A stretch of DNA of 23,535 nucleotides, from IMG/VR virus record IMGVR_UViG_3300004448_000249, positions 1 to 23,535 of that record; one strand, written 5' to 3'. How positions within the stretch are numbered: the stretch's first letter is position 1; each line of letters opens with the position of its first letter. The notes beneath the pieces are model-generated. The model was not told the origin of the DNA, searched no databases, and saw nothing but the letters and a program-made list of their open reading frames with translations. Made by a program: the position numbers and the translations under genes. This DNA comes from a virus. This document shows positions 1-19,460 of the stretch, piece after piece.

Positions 1-192
1 GATCGTTGCATTGCGCCAAAAGAAAATATGCTAAATAATATAAACAATTATAATGGTCCTGCTCAAACAATGTATGAATGGGATGGTTACTCAGTTGAAA
101 ACGACAAGCAAGGTTATCGTAAAAAGTTTTTAGTTACTAAAGATGACGACCCAGAATTAAAACGGTTAAAGGACATATCATATGTTAAATAA
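1..192 (+). CDS. C-terminal end of an unidentified protein (5'-truncated by window edge)
   Basis: Frame 1 is open from the first base to a TAA at 190-192, giving 63 C-terminal residues. The fragment is polar and Asn/Asp/Lys-rich, with the recognisable stretches YEWDGYS and TKDDDPELKRL. I do not recognise a family. It overlaps the start of the following radical SAM gene by 11 bp, the same tight packing seen through the rest of the accessory region, so the two are probably co-transcribed and may belong to one pathway. The single Cys near the window edge is not enough to call a metal site. That it is a real gene is inferred from the frame staying open and from the overlap style; its function is unknown. 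Confidence 0.6.
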   Translation, partial: DRCIAPKENMLNNINNYNGPAQTMYEWDGYSVENDKQGYRKKFLVTKDDDPELKRLKDISYVK

Positions 193-1318
193 CGAATGGA
201 AAGATTATGTGAACGGTGGGCGTGGCGAAGAGTTTGTTTCAATCGACAGTATGGGTCAGTATAAAATTCAAGTTAATTTAGAAATACTTGAAGGTTGTTC
301 ATATATGTGCCCAGGATGTTTTGTTAAGCGTCGCGGTAATTGGAACCCAAAATCAATTGCGTTGTTTCATCAATTAGCATATGAGTTAAAAGACAGGACT
401 GACGTTGTACTAGACGACATTGTAATTGGTCCAACTGATTTCTATGGTGCTGAGAATTTGGATGATATTATTAATAACCCAAGGCTTGCAGATGCTATAT
501 TAATGATGCCAAAAGATAATAGAAATATCCAACATAACTGTTCTATACTCGGTTCGTTATCTGAAAAAGATATTGAAAGCAAGATTAAATCTATTGAGGA
601 CTCACCGCTGGGTAAGGTCGTTGAAGCGTGGGATGTACAAATCGCTTTAGATCTAAATCGTTTAATGACTGATAAAAGTTATGTAGCTGCGCTTGATGAA
701 AGAATTGAAACGTTTAAGAATAGCTCCTTAGACTTTGAAATATCAATGGCTACTAATATCGTACAGGGAGTTGAAGGAATACTTTATGCTGCGATTGATT
801 ATGTCCGCGATAGATACGAAACAGTTATAGAAGTACTGCCATCTGTAGTCCGTTCATTTAATCATAGCGCAAAACACGGTGATAAACTATTTGAATGGAA
901 TGATATGTTAACGCGGTTGGCCGCGGATCCACATAGATTTAAAAACAAATTCCATTTCTTGCAAGGTGATGTTTCACACAAAGCTTTTCACTATTCAGTA
1001 GTAAGCTTACACCAAGGTAATATGTATATGTCGCCATTCATATATGAGAATGCTCAGCTGCATACTAACGACTTTGTTGTACTAAAAGAAAACAGTTTAG
1101 TTGATTCTATATTAAACAAAAAGCAAGAGATTGTCAATAGCCAAATTAAAAAATCCGTTGACAAAGAATGCGGAAGCTGTAAATATTTAAACATATGCGC
1201 AAACAGAATGGTTCCTATGATTATGGATACTGTGTTTGATGGAAGAAAAGAATGCATCTTAAATAAAGATGTGATTGGTTTATATGATGATGAGGTTTAT
1301 CATGGGAATAGTTACTAA
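182..1318 (+). CDS. Radical SAM enzyme A with C-terminal four-Cys motif (GPTD variant)
   Basis: This 378-aa protein is a radical SAM enzyme. It has the CX3CX2C cluster motif at C39, C43 and C46, which would hold the [4Fe-4S] cluster that cleaves S-adenosylmethionine to a 5'-deoxyadenosyl radical. Where most family members carry GGE after the second beta strand, this one reads IGPTDFYG (residues 82-89). The C-terminus has C330, C333, C339 and C358 (CX2CX5CX18C), which resembles the last part of a SPASM or twitch domain and could bind one auxiliary cluster. The next gene is a paralogue with the same cysteine spacing and the same GPTD motif; the two overlap by 17 bp. The start ATG at 182 lies inside the end of the preceding gene, suggesting translational coupling. 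Substrate unknown; peptide or protein modification is inferred from the SPASM-like tail. Confidence 0.85.
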   Translation: MLNNEWKDYVNGGRGEEFVSIDSMGQYKIQVNLEILEGCSYMCPGCFVKRRGNWNPKSIALFHQLAYELKDRTDVVLDDIVIGPTDFYGAENLDDIINNPRLADAILMMPKDNRNIQHNCSILGSLSEKDIESKIKSIEDSPLGKVVEAWDVQIALDLNRLMTDKSYVAALDERIETFKNSSLDFEISMATNIVQGVEGILYAAIDYVRDRYETVIEVLPSVVRSFNHSAKHGDKLFEWNDMLTRLAADPHRFKNKFHFLQGDVSHKAFHYSVVSLHQGNMYMSPFIYENAQLHTNDFVVLKENSLVDSILNKKQEIVNSQIKKSVDKECGSCKYLNICANRMVPMIMDTVFDGRKECILNKDVIGLYDDEVYHGNSY

Positions 1319-2330
1319 CAATAAACGTGCAGCACAAGCCGATAAGGATTTTGATTTATCTTTTAACGAAGGTCATGAAATCAAAGTACAATTTAATTGT
1401 GAAGTATTATCTGGCTGCGAGTTTAAATGTAAAGGTTGCTTTGTTAATAAGCTTGGATCCAACATGGGATCGTTTGATAGATTAAATAATGCTATTGACT
1501 TATTTAACAATAATGGTTATAGAGTGTCAACCATTAATATTGGTCCTACTGATATATTTGGTAACAACAACATTATTGAGTTATTGAAAGACGAAACGTT
1601 CCGTGATTGCTTGAGCAAGGTTTCTACTATACAAATGGTCACGACTCTAACAAACATTTCGCAGGAAGTTATTGAATTACTTAACAGTATTCCTAAAATA
1701 GATGGATTTATGTATGACGTTAATATTGCGTTGCAGCCACCCGTAGATTGGAATTGGGTCGAAGAAAGATTAGACCTTCTAAATGGATTTACTGATGATC
1801 TAAATTATTATATGGTTTATAACATGGGTAATGATGACGAGTACAATTCTAAAGTTCTTGAAATGTCTGAACTTGTAGAGGATAGGTTTGACTCAATCCT
1901 TACACTAAACCCATCATTCTTTAGAGCACCAAAATCTAAAGTTCAAAAACATTTAATTGAAAAATGGAAAGGCTATGATTTCTCAGATGATCTTATGCCT
2001 AAAACGTTTATTGACCAAGCGCAAGGCGGTTCTTTAGAGTTAAACTATACTTACTGCAACGAACGTTTCTTTTGGACACCATTCGTATATGACATCGCTT
2101 TAATAGGTACTGATGAATTTAAAGTCAAAGATGAGAATGATATTGAGTCATGGACAGAAGCCAAATCGTTTCAATTTATGGAACAATTAACGTACTCTGC
2201 TGAAACAAATAACTGTGGCTCCTGTCCTAATATGATGACATGTATAGACAAGGGCGTTCTAAGTTATATGAAACATCACTCACTTGTTTCGTGCGTGTTT
2301 CCCGGCGTGGTAACGACCAATAAAAGTTGA
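1302..2330 (+). CDS. Radical SAM enzyme B, tandem paralogue of A (GPTD variant)
   Basis: This 342-aa radical SAM protein has CX3CX2C at C39, C43 and C46, exactly the residue numbers of its neighbour A. It also has IGPTDIFG around residues 80-87 and a C-terminal CX2CX5CX16C (C305, C308, C314, C331). A and B further share a (T/S)PF(I/V)Y segment before the C-terminal cysteines, so they look like an old tandem duplication whose sequences have diverged strongly. The reading frame is open further upstream to a TTG at 1275, but the ATG at 1302 has a GAGG ribosome-binding site at 1292-1295 and gives the matching N-terminus, so I chose it. Two diverged copies side by side could act as a heterodimer or on successive steps; this is inference. 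Its last 51 bp are also coding on the opposite strand. Confidence 0.85.
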   Translation: MGIVTNNKRAAQADKDFDLSFNEGHEIKVQFNCEVLSGCEFKCKGCFVNKLGSNMGSFDRLNNAIDLFNNNGYRVSTINIGPTDIFGNNNIIELLKDETFRDCLSKVSTIQMVTTLTNISQEVIELLNSIPKIDGFMYDVNIALQPPVDWNWVEERLDLLNGFTDDLNYYMVYNMGNDDEYNSKVLEMSELVEDRFDSILTLNPSFFRAPKSKVQKHLIEKWKGYDFSDDLMPKTFIDQAQGGSLELNYTYCNERFFWTPFVYDIALIGTDEFKVKDENDIESWTEAKSFQFMEQLTYSAETNNCGSCPNMMTCIDKGVLSYMKHHSLVSCVFPGVVTTNKS

Positions 2331-2990
2331 TGGGAACATATTTTGGTGTTCCTGAAATTCGTGTGGCGTACACTTATGCATGTTAATATCTAACTCTTGT
2401 TCGTGCATTGGGTAAATAGACATAATAGGTGTACCATATTTAAGTGTCACCGTATATTCTTCATCTTTAATAGGAAATACTAAAAATACATTTAAGGTAT
2501 GTTGGTCATAAAAGTTTGTAATCCCGGGAGTAACTAGAATATCATGCTTTCGCAAATCTTCACTAAAATGTACTTCAGTTATCATAAACTCTGCTCTGCG
2601 ATTAGCTTCAACTGACCAAGGACCGTGTAGTTTAAATATTGTTCTATTTGGATATAATGTATCACCAAATTGCTTTCGCTCGTGCATTGCGCCTTCAATA
2701 ATTTTTGCACCATAATGTGGTTCAATACACTCAACATCACCATCAGGCTTTACTTTAAAAATCGCATCAGACCACAGCCTAAGAGTAATAGGCTTGCGAA
2801 TATAATCCACTACACCTGGGCAGGTCTTTAATGTAGGTGTTGGTATTTTTAAACCAACCTTAGATCTAAACGTGTCATACGAGTTCTGTATTGATTTCCA
2901 CCACGTTGGCGGTTTTGATCTTGGTTGAATTGGTTGAAGCTCTAGGATTGAGCCATGTTGTGTATAGAAATCAAGTTTTAGTTTTTTCAT
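2280..2990 (-). CDS. Conserved phage-type 'WWK' protein of unknown function
   Basis: This 236-aa soluble protein ends the minus-strand operon. It has an N-terminal PPTWWK motif, then a TLKTCPG segment, and near the C-terminus a GTPIMSIYP strand. This pattern (P-x-WWK, then CPG, then a 'G(T/E)P' strand) resembles a family of uncharacterised phage and bacterial proteins that I recall only as hypothetical or DUF proteins, possibly related to DUF6065; the name is uncertain. No catalytic motif is evident. The frame reaches a TTG at 2996, but ATG 2990 has AGGA seven bases upstream and is preferred. It overlaps the upstream radical SAM gene by 20 bp, so it is probably translationally coupled and may be a partner or substrate of the radical SAM enzymes (inference). 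Its 3' end overlaps radical SAM B on the other strand. Confidence 0.75.
   Translation of the reverse strand: MKKLKLDFYTQHGSILELQPIQPRSKPPTWWKSIQNSYDTFRSKVGLKIPTPTLKTCPGVVDYIRKPITLRLWSDAIFKVKPDGDVECIEPHYGAKIIEGAMHERKQFGDTLYPNRTIFKLHGPWSVEANRRAEFMITEVHFSEDLRKHDILVTPGITNFYDQHTLNVFLVFPIKDEEYTVTLKYGTPIMSIYPMHEQELDINMHKCTPHEFQEHQNMFPSTFIGRYHAGKHARNK
2333..2352 (+). other. Short inverted repeat just after the stop of radical SAM B
   Basis: GGAACA (2333-2338) and TGTTCC (2347-2352) form a perfect 6-bp stem with an 8-nt loop, three bases after the stop codon of the plus-strand gene. No run of T follows, and the sequence is coding on the minus strand. It might slow or end transcription of the plus-strand pair, but it is weak and could be chance. 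Confidence 0.2.
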
Positions 2991-4047
2991 AATCAAATCC
3001 TGTAATTAGGTTTTGCCCTGTTTTATCCATATAGTTAAACCACATTCTCATAATACAATCAGGCAAGTCACGTTCTCTGTTTTTCCAATCCCATTGTGTA
3101 TAGCATCTAAAGCCACACTTATTATACCATTGACATGATAGACATCCATTTTCATCCATGTAAGCCTGCATCATGCCAGCGTTATCTTTAGGTTCGTACT
3201 TTGTGTTAAAATCTCTTTGGTCATATCTATCCCATCTGCAATTAGATGTAGAATTATCTGGAAAGATTGTAACCTTATTTAAAGCCAAGCAATGCATGTG
3301 ATTGCTCTCTTCATAAATCAAATCCTTGATAGGGTTAATATCAGGATAATTGTGGTATACGAATTTTAAAAACTCGAGGTACTCACTATCTGATGGTATC
3401 ATATGATCATGGCCGCGATCAGGAATATAATCATCAAAGTAAAAGTTATCAAACTTATCGTACAGATAATGGAAGTATTCATCCTCATCTGCCATAAACT
3501 TTCTAATGCTTAATGTCGTAGCAACCATATTAATTGATGTAATATAATCTGAAAAATATTCTATGTTCTTAGCATATGGACCCTTTGTTGGTCTACCGTC
3601 AAAATCATATGAACAAATAATATATGATGGAATATCAATGGCGTTTAAATCGTCGAGAAGTTTCTGAACCCTATCTCGTTTACTAAACTGAAATGATGTT
3701 ACCCATACAACTTTAATCTTTTGTTTATGTTCATCATAGATCTTTTTAATCTCTACCATAAAATCATAGTAAACATCGTAAGCCCATTCTGATATTCTGT
3801 CTTGGAACAATTCACCACCAAGCATATTAATTTGAATGACGTCTGCGCGACCTTTCATTTTAATAACATGTTCTTCAACTAATGGGATCTTAGAGAATAT
3901 TGCTTCCCGTGATAAACCAACAGTTGACTTCTTGTCGTGATGGCAAAACGAGCAATTAAGATGACAGTTTTCAAACAGAGTCATTTCAATCTCAGCGATG
4001 TCTGGTCGCTTACTCTCTAGTATTTGCTTAGTAAAGCTAAAGTCCAT
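2971..4047 (-). CDS. Radical SAM/SPASM enzyme C
   Basis: This 358-aa enzyme has CX3CX2C at C28, C32 and C35, a GGE motif at 77-79 (SAM methionine contact in the family), and a textbook SPASM domain: C253 and C270, then C302-X2-C305-X5-C311-X3-C315, then C331. Seven SPASM cysteines normally hold two auxiliary [4Fe-4S] clusters. Family members typically modify peptides or proteins (sulfatase maturases, sactipeptide and ranthipeptide synthases, PqqE-type). The frame is open to a TTG at 4107, but ATG 4047 sits in an ATG...TAG 11-bp overlap with the preceding gene and leaves a normal short N-terminus, so I take that start. It is the fifth radical SAM-cluster gene after the leftward promoter. The substrate is not evident. 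Confidence 0.9.
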   Translation of the reverse strand: MDFSFTKQILESKRPDIAEIEMTLFENCHLNCSFCHHDKKSTVGLSREAIFSKIPLVEEHVIKMKGRADVIQINMLGGELFQDRISEWAYDVYYDFMVEIKKIYDEHKQKIKVVWVTSFQFSKRDRVQKLLDDLNAIDIPSYIICSYDFDGRPTKGPYAKNIEYFSDYITSINMVATTLSIRKFMADEDEYFHYLYDKFDNFYFDDYIPDRGHDHMIPSDSEYLEFLKFVYHNYPDINPIKDLIYEESNHMHCLALNKVTIFPDNSTSNCRWDRYDQRDFNTKYEPKDNAGMMQAYMDENGCLSCQWYNKCGFRCYTQWDWKNRERDLPDCIMRMWFNYMDKTGQNLITGFDYEKTKT

Positions 4048-4435
4048 ATAACATTTCTTCTTTATAATATTCGTAAATGTCTGGTACCATACCTTTAGTT
4101 TGGTCAAAATTCATTTTATCTAATATGGCATCATACGTTTCTTCGTCGTGCCAATAAGGAACGAAGTGTGGATCATTATTAAATAACAATTCATCATCGT
4201 TCAGTGCTTGAAAGAATGGTTCTTTAAAATCTTTACCAAGCCAATAGGCATAGCAAATCGCAACAACATATGATTTTGCAGGGTAGATCCATTCGTCTAC
4301 ATATTCCTCAAAGTGGCGAAGAGCATCTTCAACCACAGTATCGGGTCTCCATACAGTTTCAATGTTATTTAAATCATCTTTAAATAATGAAGCAGTGAGA
4401 TGATACGCGCTTTGTCTAGCTTTCCATTCTTTCAT
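4037..4435 (-). CDS. Small aromatic-rich protein of unknown function within the radical SAM operon
   Basis: This 132-aa protein lies between radical SAM D and radical SAM/SPASM C and overlaps both (20 bp and 11 bp). It is acidic and looks mostly helical, with five Trp and many Tyr and Phe; the centre (around residues 40-66) contains an aromatic and hydrophobic helix ending in YAYWLGK. I recognise no family, no signal peptide and no leader-core layout of a typical RiPP precursor. Its position between two enzymes suggests an accessory subunit, a carrier or the substrate itself. Start ATG 4435 is the first in frame; the upstream ribosome-binding site is poor, consistent with coupling to the gene before it. 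Confidence 0.7.
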   Translation of the reverse strand: MKEWKARQSAYHLTASLFKDDLNNIETVWRPDTVVEDALRHFEEYVDEWIYPAKSYVVAICYAYWLGKDFKEPFFQALNDDELLFNNDPHFVPYWHDEETYDAILDKMNFDQTKGMVPDIYEYYKEEMLYGL

Positions 4436-5330
4436 AATATTCTAATAACCCTTTATATCCATTACAACTATTGGTTAAGTCGTGTACATACCGATAATGT
4501 TCTGTTAAGCATTTCCCATAATAAGAACATGCTTTACATATATCGCTCAAATTGTTTTCAGGTTCTTCCTTAGCCCACTTCTCGTATTCATAATATGTAT
4601 CATATTCTTTAAAGTATTCTCTGTCGTATTTATCAAATTCTAGCACACCAAATTTTCCATGCGGTGTAATATAAACATGATCATTACTAAACGCGTCGTA
4701 TTCTCCGTCAATAGATTTAAAAATGTTATCTATGTTTTGGAAGTTAAATTTCTTTTCTGTTTTAGCTTCATCAAACTTAATAACAAAATCCTCAAAGTCT
4801 TTATGAGTTACGTTATGTTGGTTTGCTTGATTAATTGAATACGGTTTAATCTCAACTGACTTAACATTAGAAATCATATTAAGTGTAAAGATCATAAACT
4901 CTACATCCATCTCTAATACTTTTGGCGAGGCTAATATTAATACAGATAAATCCTTATTAGCATTCATCATGTTATTTAAAACGTGCTGCTCTTTTTCCCT
5001 AGCATGGAAGTCATATGATACAGACAACGTTACATCCTCATCTCTAAAAAAGTCAGGGAATGCCGATAAGTTAGTATTGATATTAATACTACCACTATAG
5101 TATTTCCTAATCACCTCTTTAAGCGAATAGTAATACTCTGGTGTTAATAAACCAATCTCTCCGCCATACAAATCAACATGACCAATTTTGTCAGTAATTT
5201 GTTGTAGGCTATGTTCTAACCATAAAGGTGTAATCTTATGTCTATCGTTTAGCTGCGATGTTGTCAAATAACAAAAATCGCAAGCGAAGTTACAATAGTA
5301 TGTAGGATTAATTGATAGATTCATCAACAT
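4416..5330 (-). CDS. Radical SAM enzyme D with four-Cys C-terminal motif
   Basis: At 304 aa this is the shortest of the six radical SAM proteins. CX3CX2C lies at C13, C17 and C20, only twelve residues from the start, and the sequence YGGE follows at 55-58. The C-terminal cysteines C265, C268, C274 and C289 (CX2CX5CX14C) lack the earlier cysteine pair of a full SPASM domain, so one auxiliary cluster is the likely maximum (inference). It overlaps the preceding gene by 23 bp and the following small gene by 20 bp. ATG 5330 and ATG 5324 are both possible starts; neither has a good ribosome-binding site, which fits translation coupled to the upstream gene. Confidence 0.85.
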   Translation of the reverse strand: MLMNLSINPTYYCNFACDFCYLTTSQLNDRHKITPLWLEHSLQQITDKIGHVDLYGGEIGLLTPEYYYSLKEVIRKYYSGSININTNLSAFPDFFRDEDVTLSVSYDFHAREKEQHVLNNMMNANKDLSVLILASPKVLEMDVEFMIFTLNMISNVKSVEIKPYSINQANQHNVTHKDFEDFVIKFDEAKTEKKFNFQNIDNIFKSIDGEYDAFSNDHVYITPHGKFGVLEFDKYDREYFKEYDTYYEYEKWAKEEPENNLSDICKACSYYGKCLTEHYRYVHDLTNSCNGYKGLLEYYERMES

Positions 5331-6345
5331 AAGGTGTTACCATGTGTGGACCCATTCCATTCGTAGCAAGTATTCTTGGAGCGAGTGATTTCATTTGTTT
5401 GCAATGTGCTTCAGTTGTTCCTTCACGTTTCATATCGCGTACTGTCTTTTTACATCCATTACATATTTCAAACATAGGGCACGTATAACAAGCCATTTTC
5501 ATTGTTTGGATATTAGGATCATTCTGCAATGGTGTTTGCATTTCACCATTCATTTCTTCTTCAAAATTAATAGGGTAATCCATATCATCTGCGAAAGAAC
5601 CACAAGAATAGTAATCGCCACCTGGGTTAAAGGCACGTATTCCGCTGTCACACAATCTATTTTGTGGACAAGATGTAGCAGAACCACCAAGACGCCTTAC
5701 CATTTGTTTAGTGTTATATTCGTATTCCATTAAACCACGGTCAAATATCTCTAAATAAGTTTCATATATTTTACTAAGCTGATAAGTTGAACCTTGAACA
5801 CCAGATGCCATCGCATAATTAAGTTTGCATTCAACACCCATCTCCTTAGCTAGTTCAACATTTTTAATAGCAAGATGTTCGTTTTCTTCTGTAATAACAG
5901 CAATAAAGTCTGGTCTTTCGCCTGTATGTTTTAGCATAGCATCTGATACCATCCAAAAGTCTTTTTCAGTGAACTCAGAGTAATCGCCTTTTAATCTACC
6001 ACCACCATATTGAAAAGACGTAGCACAACCAAACCGTTCGTTCTTAAAGACAGGCAACCATTTTTCTGGACGCATTAGGAATGGCCAGAGATTAGATGTA
6101 AAGCTGATGCTAGCTGGATAATCGTGTTCATCGAGATGCGCAATTAATTCATGATAATAATCAGGCTTAACCATAAGAGGATCACCACCATTCACGATAA
6201 TAGTGTTTGTCTCAGGATACCGCTTAAGAAATCTATAGATGTAATCTAAATCTAGTAGACCAACTTCGTTCGGATCAATATCAGTTGATGAACAAAAGGT
6301 ACATTTAAAGTTACAAGCCTCGGTTGGTTTAATAATTAAATCCAT
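5308..6345 (-). CDS. Radical SAM/SPASM enzyme E
   Basis: This 345-aa radical SAM/SPASM protein has C11, C15 and C18 in CX3CX2C and GGDP at 53-56 in place of GGEP. The C-terminal domain has C226, C232, C248, then C286-X2-C289-X5-C295-X2-C298 and C315. The NPGGDYYSC segment ending at C248 is the typical first SPASM strand pair (compare anaerobic sulfatase maturases). The last short spacing is CX2C rather than the usual CX3C. ATG 6345 has a good ribosome-binding site (AGGAGAT followed by AAAGG) even though it overlaps the previous gene by 10 bp, so it may be translated independently. Role: probable radical modification of a peptide or protein; the substrate is unknown. Confidence 0.9.
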   Translation of the reverse strand: MDLIIKPTEACNFKCTFCSSTDIDPNEVGLLDLDYIYRFLKRYPETNTIIVNGGDPLMVKPDYYHELIAHLDEHDYPASISFTSNLWPFLMRPEKWLPVFKNERFGCATSFQYGGGRLKGDYSEFTEKDFWMVSDAMLKHTGERPDFIAVITEENEHLAIKNVELAKEMGVECKLNYAMASGVQGSTYQLSKIYETYLEIFDRGLMEYEYNTKQMVRRLGGSATSCPQNRLCDSGIRAFNPGGDYYSCGSFADDMDYPINFEEEMNGEMQTPLQNDPNIQTMKMACYTCPMFEICNGCKKTVRDMKREGTTEAHCKQMKSLAPRILATNGMGPHMVTPYVDESIN

Positions 6346-7364
6346 CCTTTATCTCCTGCTAATTTCATCATTAATGTTTTAGGCGCTGGGCATACATCGT
6401 CTACCCATTGTAATTGGTGACAATCAGAATGGCAATAGATAAACACAGGGCAATCATAACAACGAGGATCTCGGTCATGTGTCTCACACGCAATAACTTC
6501 CATGCGCTTAGGGCTTTCTCTAACTGTTTTTGCCGGCATATCAATAGTACCATACCATTGTGTTGGTGCAGTGTTAGGGCATCCAGCTACAGTTCCATCT
6601 GCATTAATCGTATGTAACTTTTGTTCACAATCGCGACAGAATGTTCCATTAAAGAATTGACCTTTACTAAATTTATCATATACCGTGTTAAGAAAGCTAT
6701 TATGAACTGGGTGGTCTTCCGTTGTTTCATGCATCTTCATCCAAAAAGCATCAAGCTCTGAGTTATGTGGAAAAATATCTAGATTAATAGTAGCATTACC
6801 GTCATGAGTTAAACGCTCGTAACTAATAGATCCGATACCCAACGAATGCATATAGTCTGCAATTTCAAGTGGTTCCATTTTTACAACATCTTTTGATGCA
6901 GAGATAAAGCACTTAACAAAGCAACCTTCTTCAACTAAAAGTTTTACATTCTTTTCCCACAACGATCTCTGTATTTCATTTTTAAATCTAATATTTGGAT
7001 CCCACGAAGTACCAATTGAACCACCGTCAATCATTTTTAAAAACTTTAGTCGCTCGTCAGTCATTTTATAGACTAAGTTTGTAGTAATACCATGTGTACA
7101 CCTATCGCCCCACTGAGTTTTAGTTATATTGTAAAACTCAAGTAAGTCTTCCATAGGCGCAAGAATAGGTTCACCACCATGATATTCAAAGTGGATTGCA
7201 TTATCTTGTGTATCTAATTCGTTACACCAATTCGCGGTTTTCTTTGCATCAAAGTAGATCTTACGTCCATTTGTGCCAGAAGTAAAGCAGTGACTACAAT
7301 CTAGGTTGCAAGTCTCCGTCGTCTTCACGTAAACCATTAAGTGTTTCTGTGTCATGAATGCCAT
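6336..7364 (-). CDS. Radical SAM/SPASM enzyme F (sulfatase-maturase-like layout)
   Basis: This 342-aa enzyme has C19, C23 and C26 in CX3CX2C and HGGEP at 62-66. It has a full SPASM domain: C246, C262, then C302-X2-C305-X5-C311-X3-C315 and C325, with the typical INADGTVAGC strand before C262. Of the six it is closest in layout to anaerobic sulfatase-maturing enzymes and peptide maturases. It follows the cupin gene with a large overlap: ATG 7364 gives 71 bp, ATG 7355 gives 62 bp and ATG 7337 gives 44 bp. Any of these keeps the first beta strand, so the exact start is undecided. The stop codon of the cupin falls inside the codons of this enzyme's CX3CX2C motif. Confidence 0.9.
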   Translation of the reverse strand: MAFMTQKHLMVYVKTTETCNLDCSHCFTSGTNGRKIYFDAKKTANWCNELDTQDNAIHFEYHGGEPILAPMEDLLEFYNITKTQWGDRCTHGITTNLVYKMTDERLKFLKMIDGGSIGTSWDPNIRFKNEIQRSLWEKNVKLLVEEGCFVKCFISASKDVVKMEPLEIADYMHSLGIGSISYERLTHDGNATINLDIFPHNSELDAFWMKMHETTEDHPVHNSFLNTVYDKFSKGQFFNGTFCRDCEQKLHTINADGTVAGCPNTAPTQWYGTIDMPAKTVRESPKRMEVIACETHDRDPRCYDCPVFIYCHSDCHQLQWVDDVCPAPKTLMMKLAGDKGWI

Positions 7365-7779
7365 ATGATATCATTAACGCCTTTTTATTATTAAGTGCCC
7401 TGTGCTTTGTTCCTGCCGGTATTAACACACTTTGATTTGGCTGCAGAATAACCGTAGTCCCATCTACTTCCATTATCTTTGTGCCATCCAAACATTCTAT
7501 CAAAACATCTACTGGGTCCGCATGTTCTTCAAACGATGGACCATTTATATCGTTATAAAATATATGTATTGTTCCATTGTTATATTCAAATAGTTTCTCG
7601 GCTTGCTCAACTTTAATAGTAGCCCTATTAGCTAATAAAACTGTAACCTCACCAAGGTAAGCGATATATTCTGAATGTTTTAGGTAATGCTGGTTGCCGT
7701 CGTTATCTATATGAGATACGTCGTGGTTGTTAAAGCAATCTTCTGTTAATAGGAAGTTTTCAAAGTTTTCAAACAGCAT
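7294..7779 (-). CDS. Cupin-fold protein, first gene of the leftward operon
   Basis: This 161-aa protein has a C-terminal cupin barrel. Residues 80-99 read as cupin motif 1 (GPSFEEHADPVDV...DG), with H86 and D88 as likely metal ligands in place of the usual HxH. Residues 117-128 read as motif 2 (SVLIPAGTKHRA), with H126. Such single cupins bind a metal and act as small dioxygenases, epimerases, or sensors or binders of a small ligand; which applies cannot be decided here. The N-terminal 75 residues are of unknown fold. ATG 7779 lies 27 bp downstream of a leftward late motif and about 30 bp downstream of a leftward sigma70 -10 box, so it is the promoter-proximal gene of the radical SAM operon. 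Confidence 0.8.
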   Translation of the reverse strand: MLFENFENFLLTEDCFNNHDVSHIDNDGNQHYLKHSEYIAYLGEVTVLLANRATIKVEQAEKLFEYNNGTIHIFYNDINGPSFEEHADPVDVLIECLDGTKIMEVDGTTVILQPNQSVLIPAGTKHRALNNKKALMISYGIHDTETLNGLREDDGDLQPRL

Positions 7780-8460: not shown

Positions 8461-8500
8461 GACTTAGAAACAAACACATTCACTACAATTGGAGATAAAA

Positions 8501-8878
8501 ATGGCATTTACATATACATACTCTGTCCGCAACTTAAAAGTACAAGACACAGTAAACGCAGAAGGTGAAACCTTATCAAATGCAGTAGTTCAAACTTACT
8601 GGGATATTCAAGGTACGAATGAAGCAGGTCAAGTTGGAAAATTTTCTGGCGCAACACCGTTTTCAGCTGCTAACGTACCAGCAGGTTCATTCACTGCTTT
8701 TGAAGAATTAGAAGAGTCACACGTTACTGGATGGATTGCTAACGTAATCGCTGCAGACGCTCAATATAAAGCACATATTGACGAAATGATTCAAAAAGAT
8801 ATTGACGCAAACGTACAAACTGAAGTTGCTGGCGAAGCACTTCCTTGGGGTACACCAGCTGCAGCACCGATAGAATAA
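8501..8878 (+). CDS. Small conserved phage protein, paralogue 1 (probable virion-associated)
   Basis: This 125-aa acidic protein begins MAFTYTYSVRNLKVQDTVN. It has a GATPF segment near the middle and a C-terminal helix followed by a short Ala/Pro tail. It resembles a small family seen in several copies in marine T4-like phage genomes (possibly DUF7936; I am not sure of the number). Function unknown. It has its own exact late promoter and a strong GGAG ribosome-binding site, which suggests high late expression and hence a virion part (inference). The frame is open to a TTG at 8489, but ATG 8501 matches the ribosome-binding site. The next gene encodes a diverged paralogue. Confidence 0.75.
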   Translation: MAFTYTYSVRNLKVQDTVNAEGETLSNAVVQTYWDIQGTNEAGQVGKFSGATPFSAANVPAGSFTAFEELEESHVTGWIANVIAADAQYKAHIDEMIQKDIDANVQTEVAGEALPWGTPAAAPIE

Positions 8879-8894
8879 TAGGAAAGAGGTAAGC

Positions 8895-9224
8895 ATGACT
8901 TATACTTGGGAAATTTTAAAGCTTGGAACATTAGACCAAACTAATAACGAGGGTGAAGTTCTTGCCGACGCTATCATTTCTGTCAAATGGAAAAAGATCG
9001 CAACAAGCGATGCTAATAAAAACGCAAGTTATGTTTCAACGACAAAGCTTGATCTTTCTGCTTGCGCGGCTGCAGACTTTGTTCATATAGATGATGTTAC
9101 AAAAGCTAACGTAATTGCGTGGGTTGAAGAAGCTCTTGGCGCTGATAAGATAGATGTTATAAATAATATTCTTAGCGCCAAAGTTGAGCAAAATACAATG
9201 ACTATGATTACCCCTAACTGGTAA
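8895..9224 (+). CDS. Small conserved phage protein, paralogue 2
   Basis: This 109-aa protein starts MTYTWEILKLGTLDQTNNEG and so aligns with the N-terminus of the preceding gene (Y-T-[YW] strand, then L.....D..N.EGE.L..A). Both have a similar central strand pair and a C-terminal helix, so this is a tandem duplication that has diverged. The ribosome-binding site GGAAAGAGG is at 8881-8889. No own promoter was found; it probably shares the late promoter at 8453. Function unknown. Confidence 0.75.
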   Translation: MTYTWEILKLGTLDQTNNEGEVLADAIISVKWKKIATSDANKNASYVSTTKLDLSACAAADFVHIDDVTKANVIAWVEEALGADKIDVINNILSAKVEQNTMTMITPNW

Positions 9225-10300: not shown

Positions 10301-11541
10301 AATTTAAAAACATAAAACTTCTAAACGATGTCGTTTTAGACTATAGTAATCCATTTAAAATGTTTGCTCTAGCTAAAGAATATGATAAGTTAAAACAAGG
10401 GGCTGCCGCGTTTGGTTGGTATTTACGTGCTGCAGACTTTTGCGAAGGCGAAACGTACGAGGAAAAAGAATTACAATATAAATGTATGGTGCTTGGTGCA
10501 GCAGTGTTTGCAAGATCAGAGGCTAGAACACAAACAGTGAAAGGCCTTATTAAGGCTGCTATTGCTGTTCTCCCTGCAAGACCTGAAGCATATTACTGGG
10601 CTGCTAAATATTCAATAGATCAAAACAATTTTCGCAATGCAATGATGTATGCCAAAATGGGTAAAGATTGCGATTTGATAGCTGTATCTATTGGACCAAC
10701 CGAAGAATTGAACTATCCGGGGCCAGTTGGTTTAGAATATTGTTATGCAATTGCTAAATGGAAATCAGATGGAAGAGATGACTCTAAAAATCTATTCTTT
10801 GATTTAAAGCACAAACGCAAATTAGATATGCCTGACGAAATGGCTAAAAGCGTTGATTGGTGGATTGAGCAAGTTGGTTACCCTAGCACCCTCCCGTACA
10901 CACAAAACGAAAAACACAAATACAGATATAAGTTCGATGGTTTAGATACAGTAGTAAAAAACTATTCGCGCCACTTCCAAGATATGTTTGTTTTATCTCT
11001 ACTAAATGGTAAAAAGAACGGAACATTTATTGAAGTTGGCTCAGGACACCCTAAGTTATTTAATAATACATATCTATTAGAAGATAAGTTTGATTGGCGG
11101 GGCATATCTTTAGATATATCAGAACGTATGTGTGCTCAGCATAGTAGAGAACGTAAAAGCAGCATAGTATTAGCTGATGCAAATAAAATAAACTTTAGTG
11201 AGTTGTTTAAACAACATTGCCTAGAAAGTAAAATTGATTTCTTACGCATTAACGCCGATGCTGCATCTTTAAATACCTTGCAGGGTATACCGTTTAACGA
11301 ATACGAATTTTCTACAATTCAAATCCAACATAACGCTTGTTGGTGGGGCGATGAGTTAAAAGATAAAACCAGAAAAATACTAAGCGAAATTGGATATGTA
11401 TTAATGGTACCAGACGTTGCGGTCGATGAAAATAACGCGTACGAAGATTGGTGGGTACATCCCGGTTTTGTTAAAAAGGAAATGGCTACAAAGAAAGGCG
11501 CAAACTTTGCGTGGAATTATATGATGAAGGAGAGAGTGTAA
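10297..11541 (+). CDS. TPR-like + FkbM-type SAM methyltransferase
   Basis: This 414-aa protein has two parts. The first ~200 residues are helical and Ala/Tyr-rich, resembling the TPR-like region found in phage glycosyltransferase-type proteins. The second part (about 225-400) looks like an FkbM-family SAM-dependent methyltransferase: motif I TFIEVGSGHP near residues 243-252, an acidic LDIS after the next strand, and IDFLRINAD around the active site. FkbM enzymes O-methylate sugars or hydroxyls. The ATGA overlap with the propeller gene and the TAATG junction with the cytidylyltransferase indicate one translationally coupled unit. Substrate inferred to be a sugar. Confidence 0.75.
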   Translation: MKFKNIKLLNDVVLDYSNPFKMFALAKEYDKLKQGAAAFGWYLRAADFCEGETYEEKELQYKCMVLGAAVFARSEARTQTVKGLIKAAIAVLPARPEAYYWAAKYSIDQNNFRNAMMYAKMGKDCDLIAVSIGPTEELNYPGPVGLEYCYAIAKWKSDGRDDSKNLFFDLKHKRKLDMPDEMAKSVDWWIEQVGYPSTLPYTQNEKHKYRYKFDGLDTVVKNYSRHFQDMFVLSLLNGKKNGTFIEVGSGHPKLFNNTYLLEDKFDWRGISLDISERMCAQHSRERKSSIVLADANKINFSELFKQHCLESKIDFLRINADAASLNTLQGIPFNEYEFSTIQIQHNACWWGDELKDKTRKILSEIGYVLMVPDVAVDENNAYEDWWVHPGFVKKEMATKKGANFAWNYMMKERV

Positions 11542-12314
11542 TGAAACCAGTAATCGTAACAGGCGGGTTCGACCCACTTCATTCCGGACATATCGCATAT
11601 TTTAAAGCAGCTAAAGAACTTGGATCTATTCTATTCGTTGGTGTTAATAGTGATGAATGGTTAACTCGTAAAAAAGGTAGACCATTTATGTCCGTTGAAG
11701 AACGTATGGCTATTATTAAAGAGATTGGTTGTGTTGGTCACGTATTTACTTTTAATGACGACGACGATACGGCTTGCGATGCTATTCGATATGTAGCAAA
11801 ACAATCTCCTAAGAACTCTGAGATTATCTTTGCAAATGGTGGAGATCGTAAAAAAGGAACAACACCAGAGGTTGAGTTTGCTAGAGATTTACTTGATGAA
11901 TGTAATATATCATTTGCGTTTGGCATCGGCGGTGAAGATAAAAAGAATAGTTCTTCGTGGATCCTAAAAGAGTGGGATAAGCCAACAACACAAAGACTAT
12001 GGGGCAAAAATAGAGAATTGGACCAAAACGGCCATTGGAAAGTTAAAGAACTGTCTATTGATATAAATAAATCGTTATCGGATCAACGCCATTTTGTTCG
12101 TTCCGAACATTGGCATATCGTTGATGGCGAATTAAAAATGGATTTACAATTTAATAATGGTTACTCTACATCTAAAGTCTATAAGACTGGCGATAGTATT
12201 GACATTCCATCTAAGACTTGGCATCACGCAACGAATGTTGGAGACCGTCCAGTCAAAGTAATTGAAGTATGGATGGGAAGTACTCTTTCAGAAGAAGATA
12301 TTGAAAGAAGATAG
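11541..12314 (+). CDS. Cytidylyltransferase (HxGH) fused to a mannose-6-phosphate isomerase-type cupin
   Basis: Residues 1-145 form a nucleotidyltransferase of the TagD/RfaE type: GGFDPLHSGH at 8-17 with the HSGH signature, and NSSSWIL near 136-142 matching the family ISSTxI motif. Such enzymes join CTP (or ATP) to a phosphorylated alcohol or sugar. Residues ~145-250 are a cupin that matches the C-terminal domain of type II mannose-6-phosphate isomerase: LSDQRHFVRSEHWHIVDG and IPSKTWHHATN. The fusion suggests that activation and isomerisation of the same sugar are coupled (inference). ATG 11541 overlaps the previous stop (TAATG), with AAGGAGAG at 11527-11534; a longer in-frame start at 11511 would lie within the upstream gene and is less likely. 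Confidence 0.85.
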   Translation: MKPVIVTGGFDPLHSGHIAYFKAAKELGSILFVGVNSDEWLTRKKGRPFMSVEERMAIIKEIGCVGHVFTFNDDDDTACDAIRYVAKQSPKNSEIIFANGGDRKKGTTPEVEFARDLLDECNISFAFGIGGEDKKNSSSWILKEWDKPTTQRLWGKNRELDQNGHWKVKELSIDINKSLSDQRHFVRSEHWHIVDGELKMDLQFNNGYSTSKVYKTGDSIDIPSKTWHHATNVGDRPVKVIEVWMGSTLSEEDIERR

Positions 12315-13804: not shown

Positions 13805-14548
13805 ATGGCACAACCACAATCACGAGAAGATTTTAAAGATTTTATTCTAAGAAAGATCGGCGCACCGGTAATTCAAATCAACGTCGCTGATGAACAGGTT
13901 GATGACCGCGTAGATGAAGCTGTTTCATTTTGGAGAGATTATCATTATAACGGTAGCCAATTAGTTTATCTTAAACATCAAATTACTGAAGCTGATAAAG
14001 ATAATGGTTGGATCCCTTTACCTAAACAACTACTTGGTATCTCTAAGATATTTCCCTTTGGTGGTAATATTTCTACAGGTTCTGGGATGTTTAATGTTAA
14101 TTATCAATTCGTTTTAAATAACGTTCAGGATATGACAAGCTATAGCATGCAGAATTATTACATGACTATGCAACATATTGAGTTTATGCAAGAAATACTT
14201 GTTGGTAAACCAATGATCCGTTACAACAAATATGTTAACAAGCTGCACATTGATACTGACTCTAAGTCGTGGGTAGTAGGCAACTATATTGTTATCGAAG
14301 CATATGATGTTATTGACGAGGATGCGTATGCAGAGGTTTGGACCGATCGCTGGTTACAAAACTATGCCGCCGTTTTAGTTAGAGAACAATGGGGTATGAA
14401 CCTTACTAAGTTTAATCAAATGTCTTTGGTTGGCGGGGTAATGTTCAATGGAGAGCAAATATTATCAGAGGCGAGAGCTGACAGGGAGAGAATTGAAGAA
14501 GACGCAATAAGATCGCTTCAACCTCTCACTTACAATTTTATTGGATAA
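13805..14548 (+). CDS. 13: Neck protein gp13 (head-tail connector completion)
   Basis: This 247-aa protein resembles T4 gp13, which with gp14 forms the neck below the portal after DNA packaging. Typical features are the N-terminal helix EDFKDFILRKIGAPVIQINV, the VDDRVDEAVSFWRDYHYNG segment, and the C-terminal TDRWLQNYAAVLVREQWGMNL region with GGVMFNG. T4 gp13 is longer (about 309 aa). Position directly before gene 14 matches the T4 order. Spacing to the upstream gene is three bases and GGA of the preceding codons supplies the ribosome-binding site. Confidence 0.9.
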   Translation: MAQPQSREDFKDFILRKIGAPVIQINVADEQVDDRVDEAVSFWRDYHYNGSQLVYLKHQITEADKDNGWIPLPKQLLGISKIFPFGGNISTGSGMFNVNYQFVLNNVQDMTSYSMQNYYMTMQHIEFMQEILVGKPMIRYNKYVNKLHIDTDSKSWVVGNYIVIEAYDVIDEDAYAEVWTDRWLQNYAAVLVREQWGMNLTKFNQMSLVGGVMFNGEQILSEARADRERIEEDAIRSLQPLTYNFIG

Positions 14549-14551
14549 GTT

Positions 14552-15232
14552 ATGGCAACGAACGCATATTTTAGAAATCATGATAACGTTTATGAACAAA
14601 ACTTAATTGACGATTTAGTAATTGAATCAATTAAGATATACGGTCTTGACGTCAAATTCATTACAAGATTACACCAAAATATTGATAAGCTTTTAAACGA
14701 AGACGATTTACCTACGTTTGACAAGTATTATGATTTTGAAGTTTATATTAAAAATGTTGATGGCTTTGAGGGTGAAGGCGACTTCCTTTCTAAGTTTGGT
14801 TTGCAAATCCGCGACTCAATTACATTCACTGTTGCCATAAGAACATTTGAGCAATTTGTAACACGCGAAGATGATACTAGAAAACGACCACTTGAAGGCG
14901 AAATGATATGGATGCCTCTTAATCAAAAGATGTACAAGATCCAGCACGTTGAACATGAGAGTGTATTCTATCAAACTGGCGCGTTGCAAGTATACGATAT
15001 GCGTTGTGAATTGGCTGAATATTCTGGTGAAACGTTTGATACTGGCGTTCCTGAAATTGACCACTTCTTTGATGACATTGATACATCTGCCAATACTGTT
15101 AATACACTCACCGCACTTTCTGGTGTTGATCCGCTTTCGCAAAACTTTGATTTTGAAGATCAAGCAGACGATATATTAGACTTCTCTGAAATGGATCCAT
15201 TCAGCGAAAACATTTCAATACAGGACTCATAA
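14552..15232 (+). CDS. 14: Neck protein gp14
   Basis: This 226-aa protein resembles T4 gp14 (about 256 aa), the partner of gp13 in the neck. It shows the family's opening ATNAYFRNHDNVYEQNLIDD, a helical DLVIESIKIYG segment and a beta region around residues 60-150 (EGEMIWMPLNQKMYKIQHVE). The C-terminal 45 residues are acidic, with repeated DPxSxNxxxxD patterns. It starts three bases after gene 13 and ends one base before gene 15. Confidence 0.9.
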   Translation: MATNAYFRNHDNVYEQNLIDDLVIESIKIYGLDVKFITRLHQNIDKLLNEDDLPTFDKYYDFEVYIKNVDGFEGEGDFLSKFGLQIRDSITFTVAIRTFEQFVTREDDTRKRPLEGEMIWMPLNQKMYKIQHVEHESVFYQTGALQVYDMRCELAEYSGETFDTGVPEIDHFFDDIDTSANTVNTLTALSGVDPLSQNFDFEDQADDILDFSEMDPFSENISIQDS

Positions 15233-15233
15233 T

Positions 15234-17345
15234 ATGGCAATCGCAAATTATTTCTACAATCAAACTACTAGGAAATACGTAGCACTATTTGGAACACTGT
15301 TTAATCAGTTAAAGATTAAACGTGAGGATAACGCCGGTGTAACTAAAAAAGAAATGATTGTTCCATTATCATACGCGCCGTACCAAAAGATATTGGCGAG
15401 AGTTGCGGCTGACCCTGATTTAATTAACAGTCGTCGTCCAGCAATGACTTTACCAAGGATGTCGTTTGAAATGACTTCCATGCAATACGATCCTTTGCGC
15501 AAACTTGCTTCAACTCAAAAGGTAATTAAACGCCAAAAAGCAGAAGCTGACAATAGCAGAAATTTTGTATATACGCCAGTACCATACACTTTAGATTTTT
15601 CTCTTTACATTATGACTAAGTACGCAGAAGATGCTACTAAACTTATGGAACAAATCCTACCGTTCTTTACTCCTGACTTTACGGTCGGGGCAAAAATGAT
15701 TCCTGACCTTGACCCTATTGATATTCCTATCGTTTTGACAAGTGTAACAACTGAGGATCTTTATGAAGGCGCGTTTGAAGAACGTCAAGCTATTTTGTAC
15801 ACACTCACTTTCACTATGAAAGGTTGGTTCTTTGGTCCTGAGAAAACTAAAAAGGTAATTAAATTCGTTGATATTGATATATTTAATGGCACAGATGAAA
15901 ATTCGCCATTCCAAGAAGGTATTGATATTAAGCCTGGGCTGTCAGCAAATGGAGAACCAATAACTGAAGTTGGCGTAACCGCAATCGCAACTTCGCTGTT
16001 GACAAACGGCACAGTTAGTAGTATAAAACTAATTAACGATGGTGAAAACTATAATGCAAATACTGTCGTAACTATAGGAGCGCCAGACACAGCCAACGCC
16101 GTTATAACATCCAATATAACATTAGGTCGAGTTACTGATATAACCATAGACAACGGCGGAGGGTACTTTAGCAGCGCTCCTACTGTCTCTATAGGGCTGC
16201 CAGATCAACCTATTACGACTGCTACTGCAATAGCAACGGTATCTAGTGGTTCTCTTGCAAATGTGTCTATAACCAATAGTGGTAACTTCTACAATAGTCC
16301 AACGTTTTCAATAGCTCCGCCACCAAATGTGGCTGCAGAGTTTAAGTTTGGTGATGATGCATTAGCTCACGCATCAGAAAATGACGTTACTTTCTTACAC
16401 ACGTTTACTGGATACTTTAGTTCTAACACTGGATATAAAGTATCGTTTTGGATTTACCCAACATCGTTTCCAACAGGAAATCCTTTATCTGTATTGTTTT
16501 CGCCGTTTACTAAAGTATTCTATGATGCTTCTACAGGTCAAGTAAGGTACCAACACGGTGGTTCTCCTGTCGTAAACTCTGATACTAACTTAGTCCTCAA
16601 CCAATGGAACCATGTAGAAGTAGAGCATTACACAAATCTTATTCGTATTAATGTCAACGGTTTATATGGTACACAAGAAACGCGTGGTGCAGGTAACGTT
16701 GCATTCCCCGCGCATACATATCGAGCTGGTGATGCTCAAGGTAACGAATCAGTATTTGATGGAGCTAACAGAAGTTTCCTTGGATATTTAGATAACGTAA
16801 CTTGGGAAACAACCGGTGATATGCCTACAGCTGCTAGTGGTGATCCATATACGATTCCAACAACAGCAAGAACTGGCGATATTATTACTAAGAACTTTGA
16901 CAAGGATCTTCCCGCAGCTACACTTGAAGTAACTAATGGCGAAGTAACTAGCATTACGGTAACGGCTGCAGGTTCAGGTTATGGCAACACTGCTCCTATT
17001 ATTACTATTGCTGAACCAGACAGTACGCCGTCTGCGTTCACGGCATCTATCTCTCCGGTACTTACAAATGGTATCATAAGTGCAATAACAATAAATAACG
17101 CTGGAAGGTTCTACGCGAATTCTCCTGCGATTAACGTTTCTTCGCCAACATCAACTCAAGCAACTGCTATTGCTAATGTTGGTAATAACGGGGATGTTCA
17201 ATCAATTACTATTACAAATGCTGGGCTTGGTTATAGAACAGCGCCAAACGTGACTATATCAACTCCAGACTTTGGATCAATCCCTTACGGTGATATTGAG
17301 TTTGACGATAACTGGGGTATTATTAAAACTATAGTGAGTGAATAA
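15234..17345 (+). CDS. 15: Tail sheath stabiliser gp15 with inserted repeats and LamG-like lectin domain
   Basis: T4 gp15 has 272 aa; this protein has 703. Residues 1 to about 225 match the T4-like gp15 core (opening AIANYFYNQTTRKYVALFGTLFN, then PMSFEM-like and EERQAILYTLTFTMKGWFFGP segments), and the last ~15 residues (DIEFDDNWGIIKTI) look like its original C-terminus. Between them lie six repeats of the type G-x-V-x-x-I-T-I-x-N-x-G-x-x-Y-x-x-x-P at about residues 259, 298, 339, 569, 613 and 653. In the middle (about 366-528) sits a LamG/concanavalin-like domain with VSFWIYPTSFP, NQWNHVEVEHY and FLGYLDNVTW. Gp15 forms the hexameric cap of the tail, so the insert would project from the neck and may bind glycans (inference). 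Confidence 0.9.
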   Translation: MAIANYFYNQTTRKYVALFGTLFNQLKIKREDNAGVTKKEMIVPLSYAPYQKILARVAADPDLINSRRPAMTLPRMSFEMTSMQYDPLRKLASTQKVIKRQKAEADNSRNFVYTPVPYTLDFSLYIMTKYAEDATKLMEQILPFFTPDFTVGAKMIPDLDPIDIPIVLTSVTTEDLYEGAFEERQAILYTLTFTMKGWFFGPEKTKKVIKFVDIDIFNGTDENSPFQEGIDIKPGLSANGEPITEVGVTAIATSLLTNGTVSSIKLINDGENYNANTVVTIGAPDTANAVITSNITLGRVTDITIDNGGGYFSSAPTVSIGLPDQPITTATAIATVSSGSLANVSITNSGNFYNSPTFSIAPPPNVAAEFKFGDDALAHASENDVTFLHTFTGYFSSNTGYKVSFWIYPTSFPTGNPLSVLFSPFTKVFYDASTGQVRYQHGGSPVVNSDTNLVLNQWNHVEVEHYTNLIRINVNGLYGTQETRGAGNVAFPAHTYRAGDAQGNESVFDGANRSFLGYLDNVTWETTGDMPTAASGDPYTIPTTARTGDIITKNFDKDLPAATLEVTNGEVTSITVTAAGSGYGNTAPIITIAEPDSTPSAFTASISPVLTNGIISAITINNAGRFYANSPAINVSSPTSTQATAIANVGNNGDVQSITITNAGLGYRTAPNVTISTPDFGSIPYGDIEFDDNWGIIKTIVSE
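16008..16325 (+). repeat. Three protein repeats before the LamG domain of gp15
   Basis: Repeats begin near 16008, 16125 and 16248. Each encodes a strand like G-x-V-x-x-I-x-I-x-N-x-G, then Y or F, then a P-x-(V/F)-x-I-x-x-P strand. DNA identity between copies is low, so the repetition is at protein level. Confidence 0.75.
16938..17270 (+). repeat. Three protein repeats after the LamG domain of gp15
   Basis: Repeats begin near 16938, 17070 and 17190, with the same pattern as the upstream set (for example GDVQSITITNAGLGY followed by APNVTISTPD). The 3 + LamG + 3 arrangement is symmetrical. Confidence 0.75.
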
Positions 17346-17346
17346 T

Positions 17347-17796
17347 ATGAATGATAAGATAGCTGAAAACCTTGGGATGAGACCTCTTTCTGAAGTTAGG
17401 GAAGAAGAATTGGCGGCAGCGCCAGTTGTAGTTGAAGCTGAGGAAGTACTACCTGCGGTTACGGTGAATGTTGAGGACGATGAAAACCTTAAAGACCTCG
17501 CAAAAGTACGCGAAAATATTGAGGGTGTTATTGAGCTAGGTAACGAAGCTGTACGAGAAATGCTTGAGATTGCTAAACAATCAGAGTCGGCACGAGGGTT
17601 TGAAGTTGTTTCAACACTTATGAAAACCTTGCTTGATGCAAACAAAGACTTTGCTGATGTTTCTACTAAAAAGAAATTCGCAATAGAAGAAATTAACGCA
17701 CCTAAAGAAGCTGCACAAACAAATGTTACTAATAATAACTTAATTGTTTCTACTGCCGATTTACTTAAAATGCTGAAAGATACAGAGAATGGCTGA
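17347..17796 (+). CDS. 16: Terminase small subunit gp16
   Basis: This 149-aa protein is acidic and helical, close to T4 gp16 in size (164 aa), and sits directly before the large terminase with an 8-bp overlap (ATGGCTGA), as in T4. The central region (around 45-115) is a likely coiled coil with EGVIELGNEAVREMLEIAK and STLMKTLLDANKDF; this type of helical pair forms the terminase ring that recognises concatemeric DNA. ATG 17347 was chosen over an in-frame GTG at 17338, which lies in the end of gene 15. Confidence 0.85.
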   Translation: MNDKIAENLGMRPLSEVREEELAAAPVVVEAEEVLPAVTVNVEDDENLKDLAKVRENIEGVIELGNEAVREMLEIAKQSESARGFEVVSTLMKTLLDANKDFADVSTKKKFAIEEINAPKEAAQTNVTNNNLIVSTADLLKMLKDTENG

Positions 17797-19378: not shown

Positions 19379-19390
19379 AATTGCTATTTT

Positions 19391-19398: not shown

Positions 19399-19460
19399 GA
19401 AACAGTAAGAAAATATAAAAAACAAGATTAACGCGTTTTCAATACATAAAGGAGAAAAAT

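Follow-up and report, generated by a model that had tools for sequence, protein, structure and literature searches.

Radical SAM Gene Cluster in a T4-Like Phage Contig

The window analyzed here is the whole 23,535-nt stretch of the IMG/VR record IMGVR_UViG_3300004448_000249 (positions 1-23,535), which comes from a marine T4-like phage. Its first part encodes a dense cluster of radical S-adenosylmethionine (SAM) enzymes and accompanying proteins (genes A to I) (Table 1), and a T4-like structural block with neck, tail-sheath stabilizer, terminase, sheath, tube, and portal genes spans 13805-23494. A sequence-only reading of the window had described six radical SAM enzymes, a cupin, and two further proteins in the structural region of a T4-like phage, with neighboring genes overlapping throughout. 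This layout holds, as all neighboring pairs among genes A to I overlap in the list of open reading frames (ORFs). The same reading let the cluster begin at position 182, and here it needs correction: the product of ORF 1-192 is 97% identical over 63 amino acids (aa) to the third A-type enzyme (14271-15428) of the closest intact relative, a locus on a 72.9-kb contig (L014). Because this ORF is the end of a further A-type enzyme, the radical SAM set extends to the left of 182.

Gene identity between L014 and the window is 75-96%. The order in L014 is TAIL-TAIL, A5, a gene for a 380-aa protein, X, A4, A3, A2, A1, C, D, E, F, G, H, I, and J (TAIL and X are treated below), and the locus holds nine radical SAM genes. 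By this comparison of sequences, the window's phage probably carries nine radical SAM genes too, with approximately 6 kb of the locus probably lying off the window's left edge. The ratio of nonsynonymous to synonymous substitution rates (dN/dS) between window genes and L014 is 0.04-0.17; therefore, the cluster genes are under purifying selection. The 380-aa protein (L014, 17270-18412), which close relatives of the window's phage encode between X and A5, has no significant family match. For gene B, the ORF list also offers an earlier TTG start at 1275.

Table 1. Genes of the radical SAM cluster and its immediate neighbors in the window (loci, the 59 loci of the survey described in the text)
Gene	Product	Position	Strand	Remarks
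A3 (partial)	C-terminal end of third A-type radical SAM enzyme	1-192	+	Cut by contig end
A	A-type (divergent) radical SAM enzyme	182-1318	+	CX3CX2C at residue 39; C-terminal CX2CX5C..C
B	Second A-type radical SAM enzyme	1308-2330	+	24% identity to A
C	WWK protein, phrog_7084, accessory	2280-2996	-	PHROGs match; 12/59 loci
D	Core radical SAM enzyme, full SPASM cysteine set	2971-4107	-	phrog_1802, 1.8e-18; 59/59 loci
E	132-aa core protein, phrog_20737, mostly helical	4037-4435	-	Probable partner; anchor of the 59 loci
F	Core radical SAM enzyme, single twitch-like auxiliary cysteine set	4416-5330	-	phrog_1802, 1.5e-34; 57/59 loci
G	Core radical SAM/SPASM enzyme	5308-6345	-	59/59 loci; Radical_SAM above Pfam cutoff
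H	Core radical SAM/SPASM enzyme	6336-7364	-	phrog_1802; 57/59 loci
I	Cupin with conserved HxD...H, JmjC/2-oxoglutarate (2OG)-oxygenase-like	7294-7779	-	Cupin_2, 1e-8; 44/59 loci
J	2OG-Fe(II) oxygenase, PF13759	7887-8450	+	1.4e-13; relatives in 48/59 loci
K and L	Paralogous DUF7936/phrog_7802 proteins	8489-9224	+	Synteny in close relatives only, 17/59

Conservation of Cofactor Motifs

In a motif scan, A, B, D, F, G, and H each contained exactly one CX3CX2C, near the N terminus. Pfam Radical_SAM (PF04055) matched five of these six proteins (5e-9 to 0.014), above the Pfam cutoff for G and below it for B, D, F, and H; A had no Pfam Radical_SAM match. By PHROGs profiles, D, F, G, and H fall into phrog_1802 (radical SAM) and A and B into phrog_31457. 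The identity of all six was settled by family alignments (44-86 diverse representatives per family), because the cysteines are conserved: those of CX3CX2C are invariant (100%) in every radical SAM family (A, D, F, G, and H), and for those of the C-terminal motifs, conservation reaches 94-100% across families (98-100% for the A type). At the level of sequence, this confirms A, B, D, F, G, and H as intact radical SAM enzymes, in agreement with the earlier count of six.

All six also carry the additional C-terminal cysteine motifs that had been reported, but the full SPASM cysteine pattern is confined to D, G, and H. This pattern has seven cysteines in the C-terminal part (CX9-15GX4C ... CX2CX5CX3C ... 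C), which serve two auxiliary clusters. It is present in D and H and, with the variant CX2CX5CX2C, in G. A, B, and F have four C-terminal cysteines in the twitch-like arrangement CX2CX5C...C only. All matches to TIGR04085 (SPASM) were under its 27-bit cutoff. G is the best-conserved gene of the set, with 54-60% identity to jumbo-phage copies.

Among the accessory proteins, cupin I shows approximately 100% conservation of H86, D88, and H126 across 77 representatives, which form an HxD...H facial triad in a cupin fold; on these residues, a hydroxylase activity is probable. The 2OG oxygenase J probably belongs to the radical SAM set. Protein C has conserved H/E/D residues, which suggest a metal enzyme.

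Core and Distribution of the Gene Set

To survey the set, we used 59 distinct loci that span the whole cluster. These were chosen via E, which is hence present in 59/59. D, G, and X likewise occur in all 59 loci and H and F in 57; thus, the core consists of the four radical SAM families D, F, G, and H together with E and X. More variable are the 2OG oxygenases (48/59), the cupin (44/59), and the A-type enzymes (33/59, in 0-6 copies), and the total number of radical SAM enzymes per system ranges from 4 to 10. The core genes thus co-occur elsewhere. The sequence-only reading would have been refuted by neighborhoods in which the genes never occur together, and this is not what the loci show; they lend support to the phage-encoded, multistep pathway of peptide or protein modification suggested from the window alone.

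Hundreds of IMG/VR contigs carry the set, with 204 candidate stretches encoding a relative of E and 368 a relative of H. It was also found in jumbo phages of Agrobacterium, Sinorhizobium, Burkholderia, and Pseudomonas, including six jumbo-phage isolates; on plasmids, no G homologue was found. In Burkholderia phage S13 (L006, 18001-19178) and in FLC6 (gp77-78), two paralogous genes annotated as dihydrofolate reductase lie inside the cluster.

TAIL Proteins Are Linked to the Cluster

Four jumbo-phage loci were examined, each with a single gene between H and X whose products are alike mainly in their C-terminal CHxSCHxSCHxSRGRR. We use TAIL for small proteins of this type, with a variable N-terminal body and this near-invariant C terminus. 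With a search pattern that fixed the C, H, and arginines, we scanned all loci and then viral and cellular collections. The motif stood at or beside the stop codon in 168 distinct proteins, a few of them spurious low-complexity ORFs; the fourth repeat position is S in most of the 168, and G lies between the arginines in 151.

The viral collections gave 120 stretches with a match to the DNA pattern. An ORF ended at the motif in 114 of these, and cluster genes were present in 111 of the 114. The three exceptions are short stretches or end at the fetched edge, and one of them (L239) shares a contig with a cluster locus (L060). The cellular genomes (257 Gb) gave 88 matches, of which the 72 nonterminal ones served as an internal control: cluster genes accompanied 15/16 terminal matches and 0/72 nonterminal matches, which rules out a chance occurrence of the motif. 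These counts, together with the 111/114 in viruses, indicate that the tail and the enzymes belong together, and they give TAIL the RiPP-type trait of a gene-linked precursor with a conserved C-terminal core (RiPP, ribosomally synthesized and posttranslationally modified peptide).

The linkage is also physically tight. Of 237 TAIL ORFs, 225 lie at most 2 kb from a cluster radical SAM gene, at a median distance of 3 bp. Whole records hold just one or two copies of the motif each, and the reversed pattern, used as a control, gave zero matches. H is directly upstream of TAIL in 81 distinct cases and adjoins the TAIL gene in most phages. At least five A-type enzymes occur only in loci with a short TAIL type, nearly always as a tandem TAIL pair.

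TAIL bodies span 100-300 aa and are mostly 15-25% identical across the family. Among six close relatives, identity is 84-92% for the enzymes, 57-59% for TAIL bodies, and 49% for X, compared with 88-94% for the last 16 TAIL residues. Such fast change in the TAIL body and in X, beside a terminus that stays constant, fits a protein that faces the receptor, pairs with its own partner X, and keeps an unchanging, modified end. AlphaFold predicts a confident body of helix, beta-hairpin, and helix, with the last 20 residues flexible. The only family match of TAIL, mostly via its end, is to the uncharacterized phage family phrog_35144. A structural search returned no significant match; the best, the endosialidase chaperone 3gw6 (E=0.17), was not used as evidence.

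The window itself does not contain the motif in any frame, and the sole DNA match (6417-6434) falls inside H. From the gene order in relatives, the TAIL gene of the window's phage, normally a tandem pair, would lie just past the left contig edge. Similarly, loci fetched by E or H without TAIL appear mostly to be stretches that stop before the TAIL gene.

The sequence-only reading had offered four candidate substrates: the 132-aa protein E, the WWK protein C, a nearby virion protein, and a host protein. E does not fit, as its family alignment has no invariant cysteine and its AlphaFold model is a confident globule (mean predicted local distance difference test score, 90); a fold search of solved structures returned no significant match for it. 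C is present in only 12/59 loci, and its conserved H/E/D residues resemble those of an enzyme. The paralogous pair K and L was also rejected: these proteins have no such tail and few cysteines, occur in close relatives only, and are probably outside the pathway. The nearby virion protein is the best supported of the four, in the form of TAIL, a gene outside the window. Taken together, the CHxS tail is very likely the substrate of the radical SAM enzymes.

Tail-Fiber Context of TAIL and Neighboring Genes

In the T4-like group, the TAIL pair comes after the tail-fiber genes. In L014, a 2,795-aa gene whose best family is a tail fiber ends directly before the TAIL pair, and in approximately 20 loci TAIL comes after fiber-like sequences, with collagen-like GxKGQKG or FYDSNNTGYYF repeats. 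In the jumbo phage Atu_ph07, mass spectrometry (MS) of virions defined a structural cluster at coding sequences (CDS) 170-215 (PMC6102473). CDS 215 is the major head protein, and CDS 170, the first of this virion cluster, is TAIL; by the cluster boundary, gp170 would have been detected in virions. We therefore regard TAIL as likely to be a virion fiber-tip protein.

The window lies between the fibers and the neck gene gp14. In pelagimyophages, this is the place of a hypervariable island, bounded by VrlC and gp14, that has been named the host recognition cluster (PMC7029224). Radical SAM cassettes are noted there without explanation (PMC7029224).

Several neighboring genes of the window have features of their own. 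The K/L pair adjoins the 2OG oxygenase J, an order kept in close relatives. At 11511-12314, a nucleotidyltransferase (heptose-1-phosphate adenylyltransferase-like) is apparently fused to a cupin-like second half, and an FkbM-like gene adjoins it. The tail-sheath stabilizer gene (15234-17345) encodes approximately 450 additional residues, which in part resemble baseplate-wedge and fiber modules.

The Cluster in Predatory Bacteria

The terminal motifs in cellular genomes come mostly from metagenome-assembled genomes (MAGs) of Bdellovibrionota, in several assemblies. For two of these clusters, the flanks are clearly chromosomal, which speaks against phage contamination: on a 382-kb contig (L344), cell genes such as those for thiolase, acyl-CoA dehydrogenase, ferritin, and peroxidase border the core, and on a 78-kb contig (L310), cell genes including cytochrome oxidase do so. 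The bacterial G proteins form a separate clade. Neighbors of the clusters in L344, L310, and L368 include proteins with Peptidase_S74, a phage-fiber chaperone domain, which in L310 and L368 is joined to a type IV pilin start (N_methyl, Pfam; below cutoff in L368). The L371 protein beside L344 has a start that, by eye, resembles a pilin-type sequence. Bdellovibrio uses S74 fibers in prey recognition (PMC10769870), and the presence of one gene set beside fiber genes in both phages and predators favors a role in attachment.

Beside the N_methyl/S74 proteins of Bdellovibrionota lies a conserved companion of approximately 200 aa (L371, 15694-16323; L374, 14546-15148; L368, 1563-2156). Its end resembles a phage-fiber chaperone sequence by eye, and the L371 copy has no Pfam match. 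In the genome behind L363, a single bacterial contig holds more than 15 radical SAM matches within approximately 50 kb (G004:C34:146000-192500).

Proposed Function and Alternatives

Taken together, we consider it probable that the cluster is a RiPP-like maturation system for a fiber-associated adhesin, or virion tip. D, F, G, and H would modify the three CHxS repeats, either ahead of assembly or in its course, probably with one type of linkage or oxidation each, at Cys, His, or Ser. Zero to six A-type paralogues would join them in acting on the repeats; because five or more of them occur only with the short, mostly paired TAIL type, these enzymes may also work on sites beyond the tail or serve to distinguish the two TAIL copies. 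Hydroxylations would come from the HxD...H cupin and the 2OG oxygenases. E and X would serve as partners or carriers, and X would be matched to the body of TAIL. The modified tip, on or beside the tail fiber, would then bind the host surface via metal binding or a reactive group. We lean, by a small degree, toward a function of TAIL in host attachment.

As to the chemistry, the enzyme families suggest thioether or C-C crosslinks and Cys/Ser oxidation, the latter being included because G is distantly related to a sulfatase maturase. A bolder version is that the (CHxS)3RGRR fiber tip bears a new protein-derived cofactor or reactive group and that phages and predators share a chemical, metal-dependent or covalent, mode of prey binding that goes beyond a fit of shapes. 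This proposal is tentative, and we would not yet place it above its negation.

Several points weigh against a modified virion tip. The window itself has no TAIL gene, which is supplied from relatives that are 75-96% identical over the shared genes, and the modification of TAIL is deduced from genes. The MS detection of gp170 follows from the cluster boundary only, and in jumbo phages TAIL lies between H and X, not directly behind a fiber gene. No known leader or RiPP recognition element (RRE) was identified, with family profile searches of E, X, and the enzymes returning no known RRE-type family, and fold searches with TAIL gave no significant match. For the bacterial cases, the sequences come from MAGs. 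Finally, the hidden Markov models of the cluster were built from the same loci, though none of the 72 control loci matched.

The alternative that survives best is that the CH-rich tail is an unmodified metal-binding or assembly tag, with the enzymes modifying surface glycans or another fiber protein. Cys-His repeats can bind metal as such, and sugar-type genes (the nucleotidyltransferase and the FkbM-like gene) adjoin the set in the window. A metal tag that works independently would not require the radical SAM set, without which the motif is almost never found, and the block with sugar-type genes is present in just 17/59 loci; we therefore consider this explanation unlikely.

A second possibility is a true RiPP, for instance a bacteriocin-like toxin or signal: the tail would give rise to a free modified peptide, cut from TAIL and released during infection. 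Radical SAM/SPASM enzymes classically mature RiPP precursors with a C-terminal core, and the tail weakly resembles the bacteriocin precursor model TIGR04065 (E=0.03, below cutoff). However, the conserved core of the 59 loci includes no protease or exporter, and the TAIL body is folded, variable, and 100-300 aa long. In addition, TAIL adjoins fiber genes and opens the MS-defined virion gene cluster, and RGRR is kept at the extreme terminus. Release of such a peptide thus seems improbable.

We attach very little weight to the idea that the genes serve, like viperins, in counterdefense or host takeover, with host proteins or nucleotides as their targets. F, G, and H are weakly similar to prokaryotic viperin models over the common radical SAM core, but their scores are far under the equivalog cutoffs (up to 25.5 bits versus 180), the genes lie in a host-recognition/structural region and track TAIL, and, to our knowledge, viperins lack the SPASM cysteines. 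Equally remote is an accessory metabolic role, in low-oxygen growth or elsewhere in host metabolism, for which the 11-12 radical SAM genes of the Campylobacter phages CP220/CPt10, in an interchangeable module considered metabolic by its authors (PMC2853527), are a precedent: that module is unrelated, with no Campylobacter phage among the G or H matches, and a strict core with a linked tail motif is unlike generic metabolism.

Comparison with Known Systems

The closest described arrangements are the pairs of radical SAM/SPASM maturase and RiPP precursor of Haft and Basu, in particular the His-Xaa-Ser (Hxs) system. In HxsA/HxsB/HxsC, several radical SAM enzymes likewise stand beside a protein with C-terminal HxS-containing repeats, and the precursor C terminus is again the presumed target (PMC9062424). 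The present system differs in its three CHxS repeats with RGRR; in its four core and up to six extra radical SAM enzymes; in its additional cupin, 2OG oxygenases, E, and X; and in being phage borne. The best scores against the Hxs models were 27.5 bits for HxsB (cutoff, 370) and 28.9 bits for HxsC (cutoff, 267.9), and TAIL had no match to HxsA or, above cutoff, to any curated model.

The anaerobic sulfatase-maturating enzyme (anSME) edits one Cys or Ser within a protein. G is distantly related to it (PDB entry 4k37, E=2e-6) and scored 44.9 bits against TIGR03942 (cutoff, 349.45), and no sulfatase was seen nearby. The darobactin and dynobactin maturases DarE and DynA, SPASM enzymes that crosslink peptides, are the best curated matches of H and G; here, the scores were 45-49 bits, compared with cutoffs of 450-650, and the loci hold no darobactin-like core.

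The pelagimyophage host recognition cluster occupies the same place, a hypervariable island by the tail fibers and gp14 in which radical SAM genes come and go; in the part of that account consulted, no substrate, gene set, or function is given (PMC7029224). The mosaic adhesive trimer fibers of Bdellovibrio are phage-fiber-like, end in S74, and serve in prey recognition, and N_methyl/S74 proteins flank the bacterial clusters here; as described, those fibers have a signal peptide, with neither pilins nor radical SAM genes mentioned (PMC10769870).

Novelty and Implications

That radical SAM enzymes modify a peptide encoded beside them is a known principle; the setting, the gene set, and the proposed substrate are new. 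With partial coverage of the literature, we came across no paper that assigns the set a function or a substrate, published mentions being gene lists and notes, nor any description of a virion protein that radical SAM enzymes modify. The sequence-only reading, which knew of no described phage system with this content, needs qualification, as radical SAM genes in phages had been noted before: as cassettes in the host-recognition islands of pelagimyophages (PMC7029224), in large number in Campylobacter phages (PMC2853527), and in Burkholderia phage S13, whose genes are listed by name (PMC11898562).

If the proposed function is true, it would provide a role for the radical SAM cassettes noted in phage host-recognition islands and would add a new class of attachment tip together with several new peptide-modifying chemistries. 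A modified tip acting as a new cofactor or covalent anchor would be categorically new, and chemical prey binding would be an adhesion class without described precedent. The system is large and widespread, and its predicted substrate is short and exact, open to test in isolated phages. That the set is common to phages and Bdellovibrionota suggests that both may use the same chemical trick for holding their prey.

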